A DNA stretch of 64,000 nucleotides from Streptosporangium sp. NBC_01495 (GTDB lineage Bacteria; Actinomycetota; Actinomycetes; Streptosporangiales; Streptosporangiaceae). Within the stretch, counting starts at the first letter, position 1. Each line of letters opens with the position of its first letter. This document shows positions 3,044 to 24,349 of the stretch, piece by piece. The stretch is from the NCBI RefSeq assembly GCF_036250735.1, contig NZ_CP109430.1, forward strand, positions 3,224,001 to 3,288,000. Direction: 5' to 3'. A program made the translations under genes and the position numbers. The notes below the pieces were generated by a model. The model was not told where the DNA came from and did no database searches. It saw nothing but the letters and a program-made list of their open reading frames with translations.

Positions 3044-4098
3044 TGATCTGGCTGACCTGGCGCCAGTTCCGCGGCTCGGCCGCGATGATGGCCGCCCTGC
3101 TCGTCGCACTCATCGCCGTCCTGGCCTTGACCGGCCCGGACCTGGCCTCCCAATACTCCACCGGGATCGCCACCTGTACGCAGGACAGTACCTGCGACCG
3201 CTTCTACGACCGCTTCTTCGACGAGTACCAGCTGCCCTTCACGGCCGTCAGCCTCGTCGCGCTGCTCCTGCCGGCGCTGGTCGGGCTCTTCTGGGGAGCA
3301 CCGATGATCACCCGCGAGCTGGAGGCGAACACGCATCTTCTGGTGTGGAACCAGAGCATCACCCGCGGCCGCTGGCTGGCGGTCAAGCTCACGCTCACCG
3401 GCCTGGTCGCCATGGCCACCGCCGGCGTGTGCGGCCTCGCGGTGACCTGGTGGTCCGATCCCCTGGACAAGTCGGCCGTTCCGGAGCTGGCCCTGATGGC
3501 TCCTCTGGTGTTCGGTGCGCGCGGCATCGCCCCGATGGGGTACGCGGCCTTCGCTTTCGTCCTCGGGGTGACCGTGGGCATGCTCGCCCGCCGCACGTTG
3601 GCCGCCATGGCCCTCACCCTGGCGCTCTTCACCGTGATCCAGATCGCCATGCCACTGCTGGTCCGGCCCCACCTGATGCCCCCGGTCACGTCGGCCTTCG
3701 AACTCAGCAAGGCGAACGTGGACGGCATCGGCGTGAACCGGGACGAAACCCAGCTCGTGCACATCATGCTGGAGTTGGCCGTCCCCGGCCACGCCGGCGC
3801 CTGGGTCCTGTCCAGCGAGTTCGTCGATCCGTTCGGGCGCCCGAGCGGCACGGAAGCCGCCGTCAAGCTCTCCACCACGTCGGGACCCTGCGCACCGCCG
3901 GGGGCGGGAGCGGGAGCGGGACAGGGCATGGACACGTGCGTGGCCGAGATCAACCGGCTCGGCTACCGGCAGCAGGCGACCTACCAGCCCCTTGAGCGCT
4001 TCTGGCCCTTCCAGTGGATCGAGACCGGGATCTACGCCCTGCTCACCGCCGGCCTCACCTGGTTCTGCTTCTGGTGGGTCCGAAGGCGCCTGTCATGA
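3043..4098 (+). CDS. ABC-2 type transporter permease
   Basis: Membrane protein of 351 residues that begins MIWLTWRQFRGSAAMMAALL. A first hydrophobic segment (about residues 17-32) is followed by an extracytoplasmic loop with two Cys (IATCTQDSTCDRF), then several membrane spans. The segment ITRELEANTHLLVWNQSITR is a common cytoplasmic coupling segment of actinobacterial ABC-2 permeases. The ATG overlaps the ATPase stop (ATGA-type overlap); a GTG three bases earlier is an alternative start. Partner of the preceding ATPase. The last TGA overlaps the start of the S41 lipoprotein. Confidence 0.9.
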   Translation: MIWLTWRQFRGSAAMMAALLVALIAVLALTGPDLASQYSTGIATCTQDSTCDRFYDRFFDEYQLPFTAVSLVALLLPALVGLFWGAPMITRELEANTHLLVWNQSITRGRWLAVKLTLTGLVAMATAGVCGLAVTWWSDPLDKSAVPELALMAPLVFGARGIAPMGYAAFAFVLGVTVGMLARRTLAAMALTLALFTVIQIAMPLLVRPHLMPPVTSAFELSKANVDGIGVNRDETQLVHIMLELAVPGHAGAWVLSSEFVDPFGRPSGTEAAVKLSTTSGPCAPPGAGAGAGQGMDTCVAEINRLGYRQQATYQPLERFWPFQWIETGIYALLTAGLTWFCFWWVRRRLS

Positions 4099-7988: not shown

Positions 7989-10481
7989 TCAGAGGCGGTT
8001 CAGGCCGATGACGTGGACCACCGCGCGGCCCTCCTCGTCGGAGGCGGCCAGATCCACCTGGGCGTCGATGCCCCAGTCGCCGTCGCCCGCGGGGTCGGAG
8101 ACGACCTGGCGGACGCGCCAGAACTCCTTCTCCTCCTCGATGCGGAGCAGGCCGGGGCCGCGGGCGTCCGGGCCGGTGCCGATCTCCTCGTGGTCGTCGT
8201 AGTAGGCGTCGAGCGCGGCGCCCCAGTCGACGTCGGGGGCGAGCTGCTCCAGCTCCTGCTCGTTCTCCAGGGAGGCCAGCTCGATCAGGCGGAACATCGC
8301 GTTGCGGACCAGCACCCGGAACGCGCGGGTGTTGGCGGTGACCGGCTTGGTGCTCTCCTCCAGCGAGGGTGCCTCCAGCTCCCCGGTCGGGTTCTGCAGC
8401 TGCTCCCACTCGTCCAGGAGGCTGGAGTCGACCTGGCGGACCAGCTCGCCGAGCCACTCGATGAGGTCGACCAGGTCCTCGGTCTTGAGGTGCTCGGGGA
8501 TGGTCCGCGACAGGGTGCGGTAGGCGTCGGCGAGGTAGCGCAGCACGGTGCCCTCGGAGCGGGTCAGCTCGTAGAACTGCACGTAGTCGGCGAAGGTCAT
8601 CGCCCGCTCGTACATGTCGCGGACGACGCTCTTGGGGCTGACCGTGTAGTCGCCCACCCAGGGGTGACCGCGCCGGTAGGTCTCGTACGCGCCCAGCAGC
8701 ATGTCGGCCAGCGGCATCGGGTAGGTGACGTCGGCCAGGAGCTCCATCCGCTCCTCGTACTCGATGCCGTCGGCCTTCATCAGCGCCACCGCCTCGCCGC
8801 GCGCCTTGTTGAGCTGCGCCGACAGGATCTGGCGGGGGTCGTCGAGGATGGACTCGATGATCGAGACCATGTCCAGGGCGTAGTTCGGCGACTCCATGTC
8901 GAGCAGTTCGAGGGTGGCCAGCGCGAAGGTGGACAGCGCCTGGTTCAGCGCGAAGTCCTCTTGCAGGTTGATGGTGAGGCGGGCCATCCGGCCGTGGTCG
9001 TCGGGCTCGCTCAGCTTCTCCACCACGCCTCCGGCCAGCAGCGACCGGTAGATCGCGATGGCCTGGGTGATGTGCCGCCGCTGCCACTTGCGGTCCTCGT
9101 GGTTGTCGGTGAGCAGGTGGCGCATGGCCGCGTAGCAGTCGCCGGGACGGTTGATCACCGCCAGGAGCATGGCGTTGCTCACCTTGAACCGGGAGTTCAG
9201 CGGCTCGGGCTCGGCGGTCTGCAGCTTCTCGAAGGTCTCCTCGCTCCAGCCGACGAAGCCCTCCGGCGGCTTCTTGCGGGCGAACCCGCGCCGCCTCTTG
9301 GGATCGTCGCCGATCTTGGCCAGGGCCTTCTCGTTCTCCACGACGTGGTCGGGGGCCTGGCAGACGACGTAGCCGATGGTGTCGAATCCGGCCCGTCCGG
9401 CCCGCCCGGCGATCTGGTGGAACTCGCGGGCGCGCAGCCGCCGCACCTTGTTGCCGTCGTACTTCGACAGCGCGGTGAACAGCACGGTCCTGATCGGGAC
9501 GTTGACGCCGACGCCGAGCGTGTCGGTGCCGCAGATGACCTTCAGCAGGCCCGCCTGGGCGAGGCGTTCCACCAGGCGGCGGTACTTCGGGAGCATCCCG
9601 GCGTGGTGCACGCCGATGCCGTGTCGCACCAGCCGGGAGAGCGCCTTGCCGAACCGGGTGGTGAACCGGAAGTGGCCGATCATGGAGGCGATCGCCTCCT
9701 TCTCGGCCTTGGTCGACATGTTGATGCTCATCAGCGCCTGCGCCCGCTCCATGGCCGAGGCCTGGGTGAAGTGGACGACGTAGACGGGGTACTGGTTGGT
9801 GGTGAGCATCTCCTCCAGCGTCTCGTGGAGGGGGGTGAGCCGGTAGGAGTAGACCAGCGGGACCGGGCGCTCGGCGTTCTTCACCACCGCGGTGGACCTG
9901 CCGGTGCGCCGGGTCAGGTCCTCCTCGAACCTGGTGACGTCCCCCAGGGTCGCCGACATCAGGATGAACTGGACGTTCGGCAGCTCCAGGAGCGGCACCT
10001 GCCAGGCCCAGCCGCGGTCGGGCTCGGAGTAGAAGTGGAACTCGTCCATCACCACCTGGCCGATGTCGGCCTTGGCCCCGTCGCGCAGCGCGACGTTGGC
10101 GAGGATCTCCGCGGTGCAGCAGATGATCGGCGCCCCGGGGTTCACGCTCGCGTCGCCGGTCATCATCCCGACGTTCTCGGTGCCGAACACCGCGCACAGG
10201 TCGAAGAACTTCTCCGACACCAGCGCCTTGATCGGCGCGGTGTAGAAGGTGCGCACGTCCCTGGTCAGCGCGGTGAAATGGGCTCCGGCGGCGACCAGGC
10301 TCTTGCCCGAGCCGGTCGGGGTGGCCAGGATCAGGTTGTTTCCCGACACCACCTCGATAAGAGCCTCCTCCTGCGCCGGGTAGAGGGTCAGCCCCCGCTC
10401 GGAGTTCCACTCGACGAAGGCGTCGAAGATGGCATCGGGGTCGGCGTCGATCTCTTCTGGCAGGCGGTCTACGAGGCTCAC
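7989..10481 (-). CDS. DEAD/DEAH-box RNA helicase with C-terminal DUF3516
   Basis: 830 residues. Superfamily 2 helicase motifs are in order: ATPTGSGKS (Walker A, residues 53-61), a DEFH box (about 145), SATLGD (motif III, about 175) and QIAGRAGRAGFD (motif VI, about 365). The remaining 450 residues are the DUF3516 region typical of long actinobacterial and some proteobacterial Ski2/Mtr4-like helicases. Expected role: ATP-driven remodelling of RNA or RNA-protein complexes in the cytoplasm. The ATG lies close to a locally AT-rich leader (10490-10610). The length is normal for the family. Confidence 0.93.
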   Translation of the reverse strand: MSLVDRLPEEIDADPDAIFDAFVEWNSERGLTLYPAQEEALIEVVSGNNLILATPTGSGKSLVAAGAHFTALTRDVRTFYTAPIKALVSEKFFDLCAVFGTENVGMMTGDASVNPGAPIICCTAEILANVALRDGAKADIGQVVMDEFHFYSEPDRGWAWQVPLLELPNVQFILMSATLGDVTRFEEDLTRRTGRSTAVVKNAERPVPLVYSYRLTPLHETLEEMLTTNQYPVYVVHFTQASAMERAQALMSINMSTKAEKEAIASMIGHFRFTTRFGKALSRLVRHGIGVHHAGMLPKYRRLVERLAQAGLLKVICGTDTLGVGVNVPIRTVLFTALSKYDGNKVRRLRAREFHQIAGRAGRAGFDTIGYVVCQAPDHVVENEKALAKIGDDPKRRRGFARKKPPEGFVGWSEETFEKLQTAEPEPLNSRFKVSNAMLLAVINRPGDCYAAMRHLLTDNHEDRKWQRRHITQAIAIYRSLLAGGVVEKLSEPDDHGRMARLTINLQEDFALNQALSTFALATLELLDMESPNYALDMVSIIESILDDPRQILSAQLNKARGEAVALMKADGIEYEERMELLADVTYPMPLADMLLGAYETYRRGHPWVGDYTVSPKSVVRDMYERAMTFADYVQFYELTRSEGTVLRYLADAYRTLSRTIPEHLKTEDLVDLIEWLGELVRQVDSSLLDEWEQLQNPTGELEAPSLEESTKPVTANTRAFRVLVRNAMFRLIELASLENEQELEQLAPDVDWGAALDAYYDDHEEIGTGPDARGPGLLRIEEEKEFWRVRQVVSDPAGDGDWGIDAQVDLAASDEEGRAVVHVIGLNRL

Positions 10482-20934: not shown

Positions 20935-22773
20935 TCAGGACTTCAGCTCGCGCCTGATGTCCTCGTCGTCCGGGGCCAGTGCCAGCGCGCGGGTGAGATC
21001 GGCGACCGCCTCCTCGTCGCGTCCGGCGGCACGCAGCGCCATCGCCCGGTTGAACAGCAGGGCGGGGTCCTCCCCGATGTCGAGGGCCCGGGTGAAGTCC
21101 GCGACGGCTCCCTCGGGATCGCCGGTCTCGAACGCCAGCAGCCCCCGGTTCGCCCAGGCCGCCGCCAGCGAGGGGGCGAGCTCCAGGGCCCGGTCGAAGG
21201 CGGTGCGCGCCCTGTCGTGGCGGCCCTCGGCGGTCTCCACCTGGCCCAGCGCGCACAGCAGGTACGGGTTGGCGGGATCGATGGCCAGCCCGGTCTCCGC
21301 GTCCGCCCTGGCCGCGGCGTACTCGCCGAGCGCGGCCAGCAGCCCCGCCCGGTTGGCCAGGCCGTCCACGAACTCCGGGTCCAGCTCCAGCGCGTGGTTC
21401 AGGTCGGCGAGCGCGCCCCGGTGGTCACCCGCGGAGAAGCGGATCTCGGCCCGGTTGTAGTAGGGCTCGGGGAAGGGCGGGCCGACCCGCATGGCCGTCT
21501 CGTAGTCGGCGACCGCCGCGTCCATCCGGCCCAGCCGATGCAGCAGGTTGCCCCGGTCGATGTAGTAGTCGGGATAGCCGGGGTCGGCCGCGATCACCGC
21601 GTCCAGGTCCTCCAGCGCCTCCTCGGGACGGCCCAGCATCACGGCGAGCTGCGCCCTGTTGGCCAGCAGCACCAGCCGGTGTATCGGGTGCTCGCCGGGC
21701 CGCAGGTCGCGGTCGGCGAGGGCGACGGCCTCCTGGACCAGCTCCAGCGCCTTGGCGGGACGGCCCCGCCGCACCTCCACCAGCGCCCGGCCGTTGAGGT
21801 CGAACCCCAGCTTGAACGCCCGCTCGCGCGGGTCGGGCAGCAGCGAGGAGATGGCGATCGCCTGGTTCACCAGCGCGAGCGCGGCCTCGGGGTCGCGCCG
21901 GGCCCGGTCGCGGTGGCGGACCTTCAGCATCCCGGTGGCGTAGGCGGCCGAGGCATGGACGGTGGGGGAGACGCTCTCGCGCCTGGCCAGGTCGAACAGG
22001 GCCTCCGACTCGTCCTCGCGGCCCAGCGCGGCCAGCGCGGTCGCGGTGCTGTGCAGGAGCCGCCACCACGTTCCGGGGTCGTCGTCGGGGCCGGCGAGGC
22101 GCAGGGCACGCTCGCCGAGATCCACCACGGCGTCGTGGTAGCCCTCGTCCAGGCACCACTGCACCGCGAACAGGAACGCCTCCACCGCCTTCGACGGGTC
22201 GCCGCCGCGCTCGCGGTGGTACGGGATCGCTCCAATTCGCGCGCCGACCGTCCCCTCCCTCTCCAGCTCGTCGGCGAGGGCGTCGTGCCGTTCCGCGCCG
22301 AGTGTCTCCTCGTGGGCGCCCCGCTCGTGGGTCACCACGGTCAGCAGCTCCCCGGGGACGCGGCGCCGCAGCACCGTCAGGAGCTCCAGATCGGTGGGGT
22401 CGGCCAGGTCGACGTTCTCGACGATGAGCGTGCGGGGGCCGGTTTCGGACAGGTGCTCATGGACGAACTCGGCCAGGCCGTTAGCCAGGCGCAGCGTGCG
22501 ACGCGGCGCGTGCACCAGGATACGTTCCGCACCGGGCAGGCTCGCGGCCACCGACCGGCGCCGGGCGGGGATCAGATCGCGCAGGTCAGGTGCGACGGCG
22601 CGCAGCTCGATGTCGTAGCGGGCGACGAGCTCGGGCCGGGCCGCGGGCAGCAGGGCGGAGACGATCGCGCCCCCCGCGGTGTACGGCCCGCGCAGGCGCC
22701 GGTCCGCGTCCACCGCGGGCAGCGGCGGTGCGGGAAGAGACGGGCTTTCCTGCGGGTGTGATCCCCGGCTCAC
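20935..22773 (-). CDS. TPR-repeat protein with degenerate STAND-like ATPase N terminus
   Basis: 612 residues from GTG 22773 behind AAAGGAG. The first 180 residues resemble the ATPase part of STAND regulators: RRLRGPYTAGGAIVSALLPA and a Walker B-like RTLIVENVDLADPTDLELLT, but no P-loop is present, so ATP hydrolysis is unlikely. From about residue 200 to the end are roughly ten tetratricopeptide units (for example PDYYIDRGNLLHRLGRMDAA). No helix-turn-helix and no membrane span are visible, so it is cytosolic and likely a protein- or peptide-binding scaffold. A 24-residue peptide gene lies 93 bp upstream on the same strand. Confidence 0.85.
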   Translation of the reverse strand: MSRGSHPQESPSLPAPPLPAVDADRRLRGPYTAGGAIVSALLPAARPELVARYDIELRAVAPDLRDLIPARRRSVAASLPGAERILVHAPRRTLRLANGLAEFVHEHLSETGPRTLIVENVDLADPTDLELLTVLRRRVPGELLTVVTHERGAHEETLGAERHDALADELEREGTVGARIGAIPYHRERGGDPSKAVEAFLFAVQWCLDEGYHDAVVDLGERALRLAGPDDDPGTWWRLLHSTATALAALGREDESEALFDLARRESVSPTVHASAAYATGMLKVRHRDRARRDPEAALALVNQAIAISSLLPDPRERAFKLGFDLNGRALVEVRRGRPAKALELVQEAVALADRDLRPGEHPIHRLVLLANRAQLAVMLGRPEEALEDLDAVIAADPGYPDYYIDRGNLLHRLGRMDAAVADYETAMRVGPPFPEPYYNRAEIRFSAGDHRGALADLNHALELDPEFVDGLANRAGLLAALGEYAAARADAETGLAIDPANPYLLCALGQVETAEGRHDRARTAFDRALELAPSLAAAWANRGLLAFETGDPEGAVADFTRALDIGEDPALLFNRAMALRAAGRDEEAVADLTRALALAPDDEDIRRELKS

Positions 22774-22825
22774 CGGACTCCTTTAACTCGATTAGTCGAT
22801 ATTTGATGATATGGCTCTGCCGGGC

Positions 22826-22853
22826 AACCGGCGCCCATCGCTGGACGCCGGTT
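22826..22853 (-). other. Intercistronic hairpin between peptide and TPR genes
   Basis: Perfect 8-bp inverted repeat AACCGGCG / CGCCGGTT with a 12-nt loop, in the 93-bp gap between the 24-residue peptide gene and the TPR gene. No T-run follows on either strand. The placement suits partial attenuation or RNA processing that would give more peptide than TPR message; that is inference. Confidence 0.5.
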
Positions 22854-22866
22854 CTGCGATTCTGTG

Positions 22867-22941
22867 TCAGCCGACGTGCTTAGGGCTGGCGGTGCCGCTG
22901 AGTGCGATGGTGCCGGGCTTGTGAACAATGACGCGCTTCAT
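22867..22941 (-). CDS. 24-residue peptide gene upstream of the TPR gene
   Basis: A very short gene with an unusually good ribosome site: GAGGAAGG (22948-22955, read in reverse), 6-nt gap, then ATG. The product starts MKRVIVHKPG, continues TIALSGT and ends ASPKHVG. The N terminus is basic (pI clearly high), the middle has Ser/Thr/Gly, and there is no Cys. It has no signal peptide of ordinary length and matches no precursor class I can name with certainty. Same strand as, and 93 bp before, the STAND/TPR gene, with its own promoter-like sequence upstream. Likely a signalling or precursor peptide, but this is inference. Confidence 0.6.
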   Translation of the reverse strand: MKRVIVHKPGTIALSGTASPKHVG

Positions 22942-22975
22942 TATCGGCCTTCCTCGCGAATAAGAACAAATTGCA

Positions 22976-23005
22976 AGTATTCGCAGCAGTCGCCCATACT
23001 GACAA
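22976..23005 (-). promoter_or_regulatory. Putative promoter of the peptide-TPR operon
   Basis: Read on the minus strand: TTGTCA (complement of 23000-23005), an 18-bp spacer and AATACT (complement of 22976-22981), followed 20-30 bp later by the AT-rich leader of the peptide gene. It is one of the few AT-rich patches in the area. No other gene starts here; 23006-23219 holds only an 11-bp GTCGCGACGGC tandem pair at 23175-23196. Confidence 0.5.
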
Positions 23006-23219
23006 GATCTATTTCTTATCGTGGCCGGATCCGGACAAGCCTCTGGACAGGCGCCGCGCGGTGGTGTTGTCCAAACCGGCGCGTCCCGCCCGGGATCCGT
23101 GCCCGCCCGGAGCCGGTACCGTCACGTACCCACGCTGTCCGCCGTGCCGCGCCGTCCGCCCGCGTCGTGGCGGTGTCGCGACGGCGTCGCGACGGCGTCG
23201 TACGCGCGGTGGGGAGGTG

Positions 23220-24182
23220 TCAGGGGGCGACCCGCAGGACGATTTTTCCCTTGGCGCGGCCGCCGCCGAGCCGCTCGTGGGCCGCGGCGGCCTCGTCGAG
23301 CGGGAACACCTCCTCGACCTCGGGGGCGATCCCCCCGCCGTCGATCAGCTCGGCGATCCGGGCCAGGGCCGATCCGTCCGGCTCCACCAGGAACGCGCGG
23401 GCCCTAAGCCCCCGCGCCCCGGCGGCGCGCAGCAGGTCGGGGGAGGCGCCCGAGGGCACGGGGACGAGCAGCCCGCCGGGGCGGAGGACGTCGAGGGAGC
23501 GCGTGCTCGTCGCGTCGTGCTCGTCCCCGACCAGGTCGACGACCACGTCCACGTCGCGCACCACGTCCTCGAAGCGGACGGCCGTGTAGTCGACGAGCTC
23601 GTCGGCCCCCAGCCCGCGCAGCCAGTCGTGCCTGCCGGCGCGGGCGGTGCCGATCACGTAAGCGCCGAGGTGCTTGGCGATCTGGACGGCGAGGTGCCCG
23701 ACGCCGCCCGCGGCGGCGTGGACGAGGACGCGCTGTCCCGGGGCGACCTTCGCGGTGTCCACCAGGACCTGCCACGCGGTCAGCGAGGCGAGCGGCACGG
23801 CGCCGGCCTGGTCGTGCCCCAGGGAGCGCGGCTTACGGGTGAACTGCCGCGACGGCGCGGTCACGAACTCGGCGTAGGCACCGGCCTGGCGCGGGAACCA
23901 CGGCATGCCGTACACCTCGTCCCCCACCTCCAGGGAGCTCACCCCGAAGCCGGTCTCCTCGACGACACCGGAGACGTCCCAGCCCAGGACGAAGGGCGGG
24001 TCCCCCAGGACGCCGGCCATGCCCGCGCCCGCCCTGGTCTTGAGGTCCACCGGGTTCACCCCCGCCGAGACGACCCGTACCAGCACCTCGGTGGGCAGCG
24101 GCTCCGGGCGCTCCACACGGACCCGGCGCAGCACCTCGGGGCCGCCGAAGGTGTCCTGGCTGATCGCTCGCATAAGGGTCAC
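23220..24182 (-). CDS. NADP-dependent quinone oxidoreductase-like MDR enzyme
   Basis: 320 residues. Medium-chain dehydrogenase/reductase fold without catalytic zinc ligands: the N-terminal PTEVLVRVVSAGVNPVDLKT block, GWDVSGVVEE, and the nucleotide-binding VLVHAAAGGVGHLAVQIAK followed by IGTARAGRHDWLRGLGADEL. The C-terminal ending HERLGGGRAKGKIVLRV is typical of quinone oxidoreductases. GTG start at 24182 behind GGGGAG; ATG 24173 is an alternative. Stand-alone gene, divergent from the methyltransferase at 24350. Confidence 0.9.
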   Translation of the reverse strand: MTLMRAISQDTFGGPEVLRRVRVERPEPLPTEVLVRVVSAGVNPVDLKTRAGAGMAGVLGDPPFVLGWDVSGVVEETGFGVSSLEVGDEVYGMPWFPRQAGAYAEFVTAPSRQFTRKPRSLGHDQAGAVPLASLTAWQVLVDTAKVAPGQRVLVHAAAGGVGHLAVQIAKHLGAYVIGTARAGRHDWLRGLGADELVDYTAVRFEDVVRDVDVVVDLVGDEHDATSTRSLDVLRPGGLLVPVPSGASPDLLRAAGARGLRARAFLVEPDGSALARIAELIDGGGIAPEVEEVFPLDEAAAAHERLGGGRAKGKIVLRVAP

Positions 24183-24349
24183 GATGGCTCTCCCCGGTCT
24201 CCTGCCGTTCTTCCCTCAGGTGTCGCCGCCCGCGAGGGGCGGCGCGGATCACGCTACCTTTCCGGCCCCCGGCGACCCGGTTGCCCTGCCGCGTACCGTG
24301 CCGGACGCCCTCGCATCCGGCTGTCGCGGAGGGATGAGACCCTGGTGCG

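Follow-up and report, generated by a model that had tools for sequence, protein, structure and literature searches.

The short gene at positions 22867–22941 of the window, the 64,000-nucleotide stretch of Streptosporangium sp. NBC_01495 DNA analysed here, encodes what is, on balance, probably a leader–core peptide that acts in trans as the dedicated ligand or substrate of a degenerate STAND/TPR protein. Together, peptide and partner point to a family of pairs so far undescribed. The parts (TPR partner, leader peptide and RRE-like protein) have known relatives; their combination was not found in the literature searched, and searches by leader strings or topic terms, covering few subscription papers, returned no published description of this pair.

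A 24-codon peptide gene upstream of a TPR gene

The peptide gene (class A, 24 aa, MKRVIVHKPGTIALSGTASPKHVG) lies on the minus strand, with its ATG at 22941 and a TGA that ends at 22867. By sequence reading, the Shine–Dalgarno sequence GAGGAAGG occupies 22948–22955 (minus strand), 6 nt 5′ of the ATG. A purine-rich ribosome site also precedes the peptide homologues in 16 of 16 genus genomes, which bears out the strong ribosome site and 24-codon gene of the original prediction. The promoter-like hexamers described there correspond to one sigma-70-like site (TTGTCA-18-AATACT, 23005–22976, minus strand), a consensus match only, with 9 of 12 matches and a spacer of 18; shuffles give 0.1. The peptide stop is separated by 93 nt from the GTG of the TPR gene (22773) on the same strand.

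A TPR orthologue was found in all 16 genus genomes searched, the window's genome included, and each has a 24-codon peptide homologue upstream of it. The peptide codons compared within the genus give a dN/dS of 0.155 (dS 0.56, dN 0.087; 120 pairs), and 65% of the differences fall at third codon positions, a proportion that none of 20,000 column permutations reaches. Because the homologue is present in 16 of 16 genomes, dN/dS is low and third positions are in excess, the ORF is, as judged from these comparisons of sequence, a genuine peptide gene under protein-level selection. Short ORF homologues upstream of TPR homologues, with changes of the synonymous type, had been proposed as the check on this gene, and both were observed, the former in the genus and in 77 of the 80 wider loci described below.

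Neither Pfam nor NCBIfam holds a family for the peptides tried (P0001, one of class E and one of class B). As had been claimed, the peptide carries no Sec-type signal by sequence reading, the longest plainly hydrophobic run being three residues. The four neighbours that flank the pair in the window are, by Pfam, a phosphotransferase, a zinc dehydrogenase and two methyltransferases; none of these four is an RRE or protease, and no MFS gene lies beside the window TPR gene.

The TPR partner and its predicted groove

The partner (612 aa, 20935–22773, minus strand; Shine–Dalgarno AAGGAG at 22778–22783 by sequence reading, same strand) comprises a putative, P-loop-less STAND-like N-terminal remnant (~residues 20–150) followed by an all-helical TPR superhelix. 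Repeated Pfam TPR matches in the 612-codon ORF agree with the predicted same-strand TPR gene 93 nt downstream of the peptide, and the AF2 model (pLDDT 94) is a TPR superhelix. The P-loop motif G-x4-GK[ST], said to be missing from the N terminus, is absent from the partner (P0002) and from the first 250 residues of 94 of 94 relatives. The top Foldseek row for the N-terminal model is chain C of 8bob, a maltose-system entry that we take to be MalT; the match is weak (E 0.051), with Z 5.2 and an rmsd of 3.8 over 102 residues. Barstar-like matches of the same domain (Z ~7) lie inside the comparison tool's stated noise and were set aside. The partner resembles STAND ATPase–TPR regulators such as MalT in having an N-terminal model weakly similar to part of the ATPase region and then TPRs, whereas it differs from them in lacking the P-loop and in having no HTH or other DNA-binding domain among the Pfam matches listed (25 of 30). 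PADLOC gave no match for the TPR protein or for the membrane protein described below.

The superhelix resembles many TPR proteins, including LGN in peptide complexes (Z 23.6, rmsd 5.6, 303 aligned) and the quorum sensor NprR (Z 19.7, rmsd 4.4, 277 aligned). The TPR fold is generic, and in these model comparisons the resemblance is one of fold, not of function. Asn440 and Asn474, which are invariant in A3, and the nearly invariant Asn575 are each located at position 6 of their own helix. Asparagines at such helix positions can form a peptide-binding Asn ladder, and we read these three as a predicted ladder of this kind. The leader strand of the peptide and/or its C-terminal motif (ASxKHxx in class A, SSVIHKG in class B) would bind the inner groove of the superhelix.

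Co-occurrence of the peptide and the TPR protein

A scan for TPR relatives yielded 249, of which 80 were retained, including loci of Streptosporangium, Planomonospora, Planobispora, Nonomuraea, Microbispora and Actinomadura. With a peptide pattern composed after peptides had been inspected, a homologue was found within 1 kb upstream at 77 of the 80 loci, as against none of 80 on the reverse strand, none of 80 further upstream, none of 80 inside the TPR gene and 8 of 1600 shuffled sequences. In these 77 loci the peptide starts 95–460 nt before the first matched TPR codon and is 24 residues long in 75 cases and 25 in two.

A survey of 200 genomes of the family, with cut-offs chosen after the lists had been inspected (peptide profile E ≤ 0.005, 85 genomes; TPR protein E ≤ 1e-110, 92 genomes), placed 84 genomes with both, 1 with the peptide only, 8 with the TPR protein only and 107 with neither; some assemblies occur both here and among the 80 loci, so the two sets of counts are not independent. 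When the TPR loci were read individually, all eight TPR-only genomes (G023, G112, G163, G027, G026, G133, G127 and G053) had a peptide beside the TPR gene, which belongs to class D (see below) in G163 and G027, and the peptide is thus present in all 92 TPR-positive genomes. Three further genomes reached at TPR E ≤ 1e-60 (G025, G046 and G162) also have class D peptides. Relaxing the peptide profile to E ≤ 1 brings the list to 142 family genomes, and matches weaker than E 0.005 are mostly attributable to chance; the peptide-only genome (G174), with its match inside a 164-aa frame, is probably a chance case as well.

The reverse comparison started from 80 peptide places, a selection from the profile list with four above E 0.03, and a TPR homologue follows downstream in 69, counting L142, where the TPR ORF opens 1283 nt after a weak peptide. 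The other 11 are orphans (L084–L089, L093, L095, L098, L132 and L143), some without visible decay. When 394 genomes of the class, with the family represented among them, were searched, the strongest peptide match outside the family was in G213 (E 9.9e-6), with another in G460 (E 5.7e-4); the TPR profile at E ≤ 1e-60 reaches three genomes outside the family (G213, G294 and G432). As far as sequence searches can tell, peptide and TPR protein have stayed together in almost every relative examined.

Peptide classes follow TPR clades

Class A peptides end in ASxKHxx and class B peptides in SSVIHKG, with S19, I21, H22, K23 and G24 invariant in 33 distinct class B peptides. Leader and tail are conserved to about the same degree, and the tails of both classes are nearly Cys-free, a few class A tails holding one Cys. 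A tree of 68 TPR proteins, with its root not known and 44 of the 80 retained loci taken in, separates each of the classes A, B, C and E from all other rows by a single branch, with class D spread. Branch support is 100/100 for class A (33 rows), 100/99 for class B (11 rows) and 99/92 for A and B grouped with one D row, which is itself a long branch; long branches join C and E, and that join is unsafe. In these proteins the C-terminal class of the peptide (A or B) follows the TPR clade, and only these two labels are independent of the TPR protein, being taken from the peptide tail, whereas C, D and E were assigned by locus group.

Pairs of two classes are often present in one genome. In other genera, smc and ftsY (named by sequence reading) precede many of the class A pairs, which may be linked to nsdA, a TPR gene near ftsY in Streptomyces. 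Six of these class A loci, all among the 80, have an MFS frame that begins where the TPR gene ends. The class B site often has the order XRE-like/TPR gene–GNAT–peptide–TPR–purU, the neighbours being named by sequence reading, with GNAT and weak TPR matches from Pfam. A second, partly decayed peptide, MKKIIVHKVGVSRLGGVASAIHKG, is located at the class B site of the window's genome (L084, G000:C1:1956826-1956897), and no TPR homologue was found in the surrounding 15 kb.

Class C tails read LW[IF]EWCW at 7 of 7 loci (L169–L175); a class C pattern matched 6 of the 7, and the peptide of L174 is MKKMPIRRKSALRLMSGARRLWIEWCW. These ends, WIEWCW or WFEWCW, are very unlike those of A and B, and the peptides precede a diverged TPR paralogue.

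A leader shared with RRE-like/HExxH cassettes

At all 17 D/E loci read (L164–L168, L234–L242, L176, L348 and L349; three outside the family, and with ten further strong membrane-protein matches left out of the count), the genes come in the order peptide, membrane protein (~430 aa) and TPR gene, whereas classes A, B and C have no membrane protein between peptide and TPR gene. HExxH occurs in the membrane protein at 16 of 16 loci that the check could place; L237, with a GTG start in its first copy, escaped it. A profile of the N-terminal region searched against the PDB found TbiB1 (5v1u, E 0.0047), which we take to be a leader-binding RRE. TfuB1 ranked sixth in that search (E 0.48), below unrelated chains, so that the RRE assignment is weak; a PqqD match is likewise weak and present in 5 of 17 members, and the protein has no convincing Pfam or NCBIfam family. 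These features point to an RRE-like/HExxH protein in a cassette arranged as in RiPP clusters. D/E-type cassettes occur in several actinomycete families and would be candidates for an uncharacterised RiPP-like class.

The D/E peptides carry an MKKIxVRKxGxVRLT leader and tails that hold Tyr and often Cys. An N-terminal half of the form MKKIxVRKPGxVxLxG is common to these and to the A/B peptides; MKKIVVRKPGTVRLTA (class D, G213) and MKKIIVRKPGTVRLTG (class B, L111) are identical at all but 2 of 16 positions. This link, invisible from the window alone, speaks for a leader of RiPP type and against a classical pheromone. The pair in the window looks like a D/E cassette from which the membrane protein has gone: A/B pairs, the window pair among them, would descend from a RiPP-like cassette that lost this protein, and the remaining pair would act inside the cell, accompanied at six class A loci by an MFS transporter gene downstream of the TPR gene. 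The proposed direction of loss, from D to A/B, is read from an unrooted tree in which a long D branch lies beside A/B. A fuller history, which we put forward tentatively as possible, is that of a domesticated RiPP cassette in which RRE and protease were lost and the precursor and TPR companion became a vertically kept, duplicated peptide–receptor system of independent origin at fixed sites (smc–ftsY; XRE-like–GNAT–purU) in Streptosporangiaceae. If true, it would be an actinomycete counterpart of RRNPP signalling.

The same leader homology bears on a rather unlikely alternative, in which the peptide is a RiPP precursor still modified and exported by enzymes encoded elsewhere and the TPR protein is a maturation or immunity factor. 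The peptides resemble the precursors of PqqD-like-RRE RiPPs in their conserved N-terminal leader and variable, predicted C-terminal core, D/E cassettes have an RRE-like domain fused to an HExxH membrane protein after the peptide, and the window's genome has a distant membrane-protein homologue with a PqqD match near C1:5.25 Mb. That site, however, has its own, different candidate peptide. Five genomes of the genus with a class A pair (G001, G002, G003, G014 and G015) have no membrane-protein match at E ≤ 1e-10, and the A/B tails are almost free of Cys. Classes A, B and C, unlike known RiPP systems, have no RRE-like protein between the genes and no modifying enzyme identified, and the TPR protein is a constant companion.

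The C1:5.25 Mb site (L227, G000:C1:5244000-5260000) lies 2 Mb from the window pair. It encodes a protein with the genome's only PqqD match, the distant membrane-protein homologue and a candidate 37-aa peptide ending KKIKLEVRRLEKVETTVWREGSG, and is RiPP-like.

Comparison with RRNPP signalling

The original prediction had seen in the pair the pattern of bacterial peptide signalling. The pairing itself stands (16 of 16 genus genomes, 77 of 80 loci), whereas the RRNPP signature, as given in PMC10075063, is not found. RRNPP systems (Rap/Phr, NprR and others) likewise have a short peptide gene adjoining a TPR protein gene, paralogous pairs and a class-specific peptide end, and NprR is among the fold matches of the partner. 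In contrast to them, the peptide here has no Sec signal and shares its leader with RRE-like cassettes, and the partner has 612 aa, as against receptors of about 250–500 aa in PMC10075063, with no HTH among the Pfam matches listed (25 of 30). The same source describes peptide quorum sensing for Firmicutes and, in Actinobacteria, signals that are typically small molecules; the hosts here are actinomycetes. Classical RRNPP membership fails.

An exported RRNPP-like pheromone, whose C-terminal hexa- or heptapeptide would be cleaved off, leave the cell by a non-Sec route (an MFS transporter or other) and, once re-imported, be bound by the TPR protein, is unlikely. The five invariant class B tail residues, the MFS frame at six class A loci and the superhelical partner speak for it, but the peptide has no signal peptide and only a three-residue hydrophobic run, its leader is about as conserved as its tail, the 25 of 30 Pfam matches listed hold no HTH, and the window TPR gene has no neighbouring MFS gene. 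Whether intracellular or intercellular, a peptide/TPR pair across many Streptosporangiaceae genera would make peptide control in antibiotic-producing actinomycetes directly testable.

Evidence for action in trans

In three pairs the two genes are not linked or not on the same strand. Planomonospora parontospora (L278) encodes the peptide on the strand opposite to its TPR gene, 2.65 kb away, and in G030 and G065 the two genes are on separate contigs, each at least 36 kb from the nearest contig end, with no peptide found in the 14 kb surrounding either TPR gene. These cases argue for action in trans, and a leader acting in cis would not suffice alone. Among class B peptides that have lost their TPR gene, 4 of 7 have an altered IHKG end, as against 0 of 39 that retain the gene (Fisher 2e-4, which overstates independence because six of the seven orphans come from one genus).

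A cis-acting leader peptide that controls the TPR gene by ribosome arrest or attenuation is accordingly very unlikely. It would account for the near-constant 24 codons (75 of 77), the close spacing and a conserved hairpin 3′ of the stop in many class A loci, but the peptide is kept when unlinked or on the opposite strand, the D/E homologues precede the membrane protein gene instead, and a comparable stem is absent from most class B loci, L289 being one that has it. A chance ORF or non-coding conserved element can be dismissed, short ORFs in GC-rich DNA notwithstanding, given the dN/dS of 0.155, the 0-of-80 positional controls and the absence of any Rfam match at E ≤ 1 in 22000–24300. The reading that we favour remains that of a leader–core peptide acting in trans on its TPR partner.

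Further features of the loci

The hairpin itself (AACCGGCGTCC..GGGCGCCGGTT, 22826–22853, minus strand) lies between the peptide stop and the TPR gene and has a z of −4.2. Its 9-pair stem is unbroken and mostly invariant in 14 of 14 aligned loci (the window and 13 others of class A), among which one stem pair shows a compensatory change. This GC hairpin is strongly conserved 3′ of class A peptides and may have a role in the peptide:TPR ratio.

At L229, three short peptides of the form MDIEVREVE..KAT.... precede a single membrane protein gene, 171–504 nt before the membrane-protein match, and represent a possible second precursor family. In one E and one D cassette, the gene directly after the TPR gene, or overlapping it, is by eye flavin-reductase-like, at 9213–9744 in the reverse strand's count in L167 and 3442–4024 after the start of the membrane-protein match in L239.
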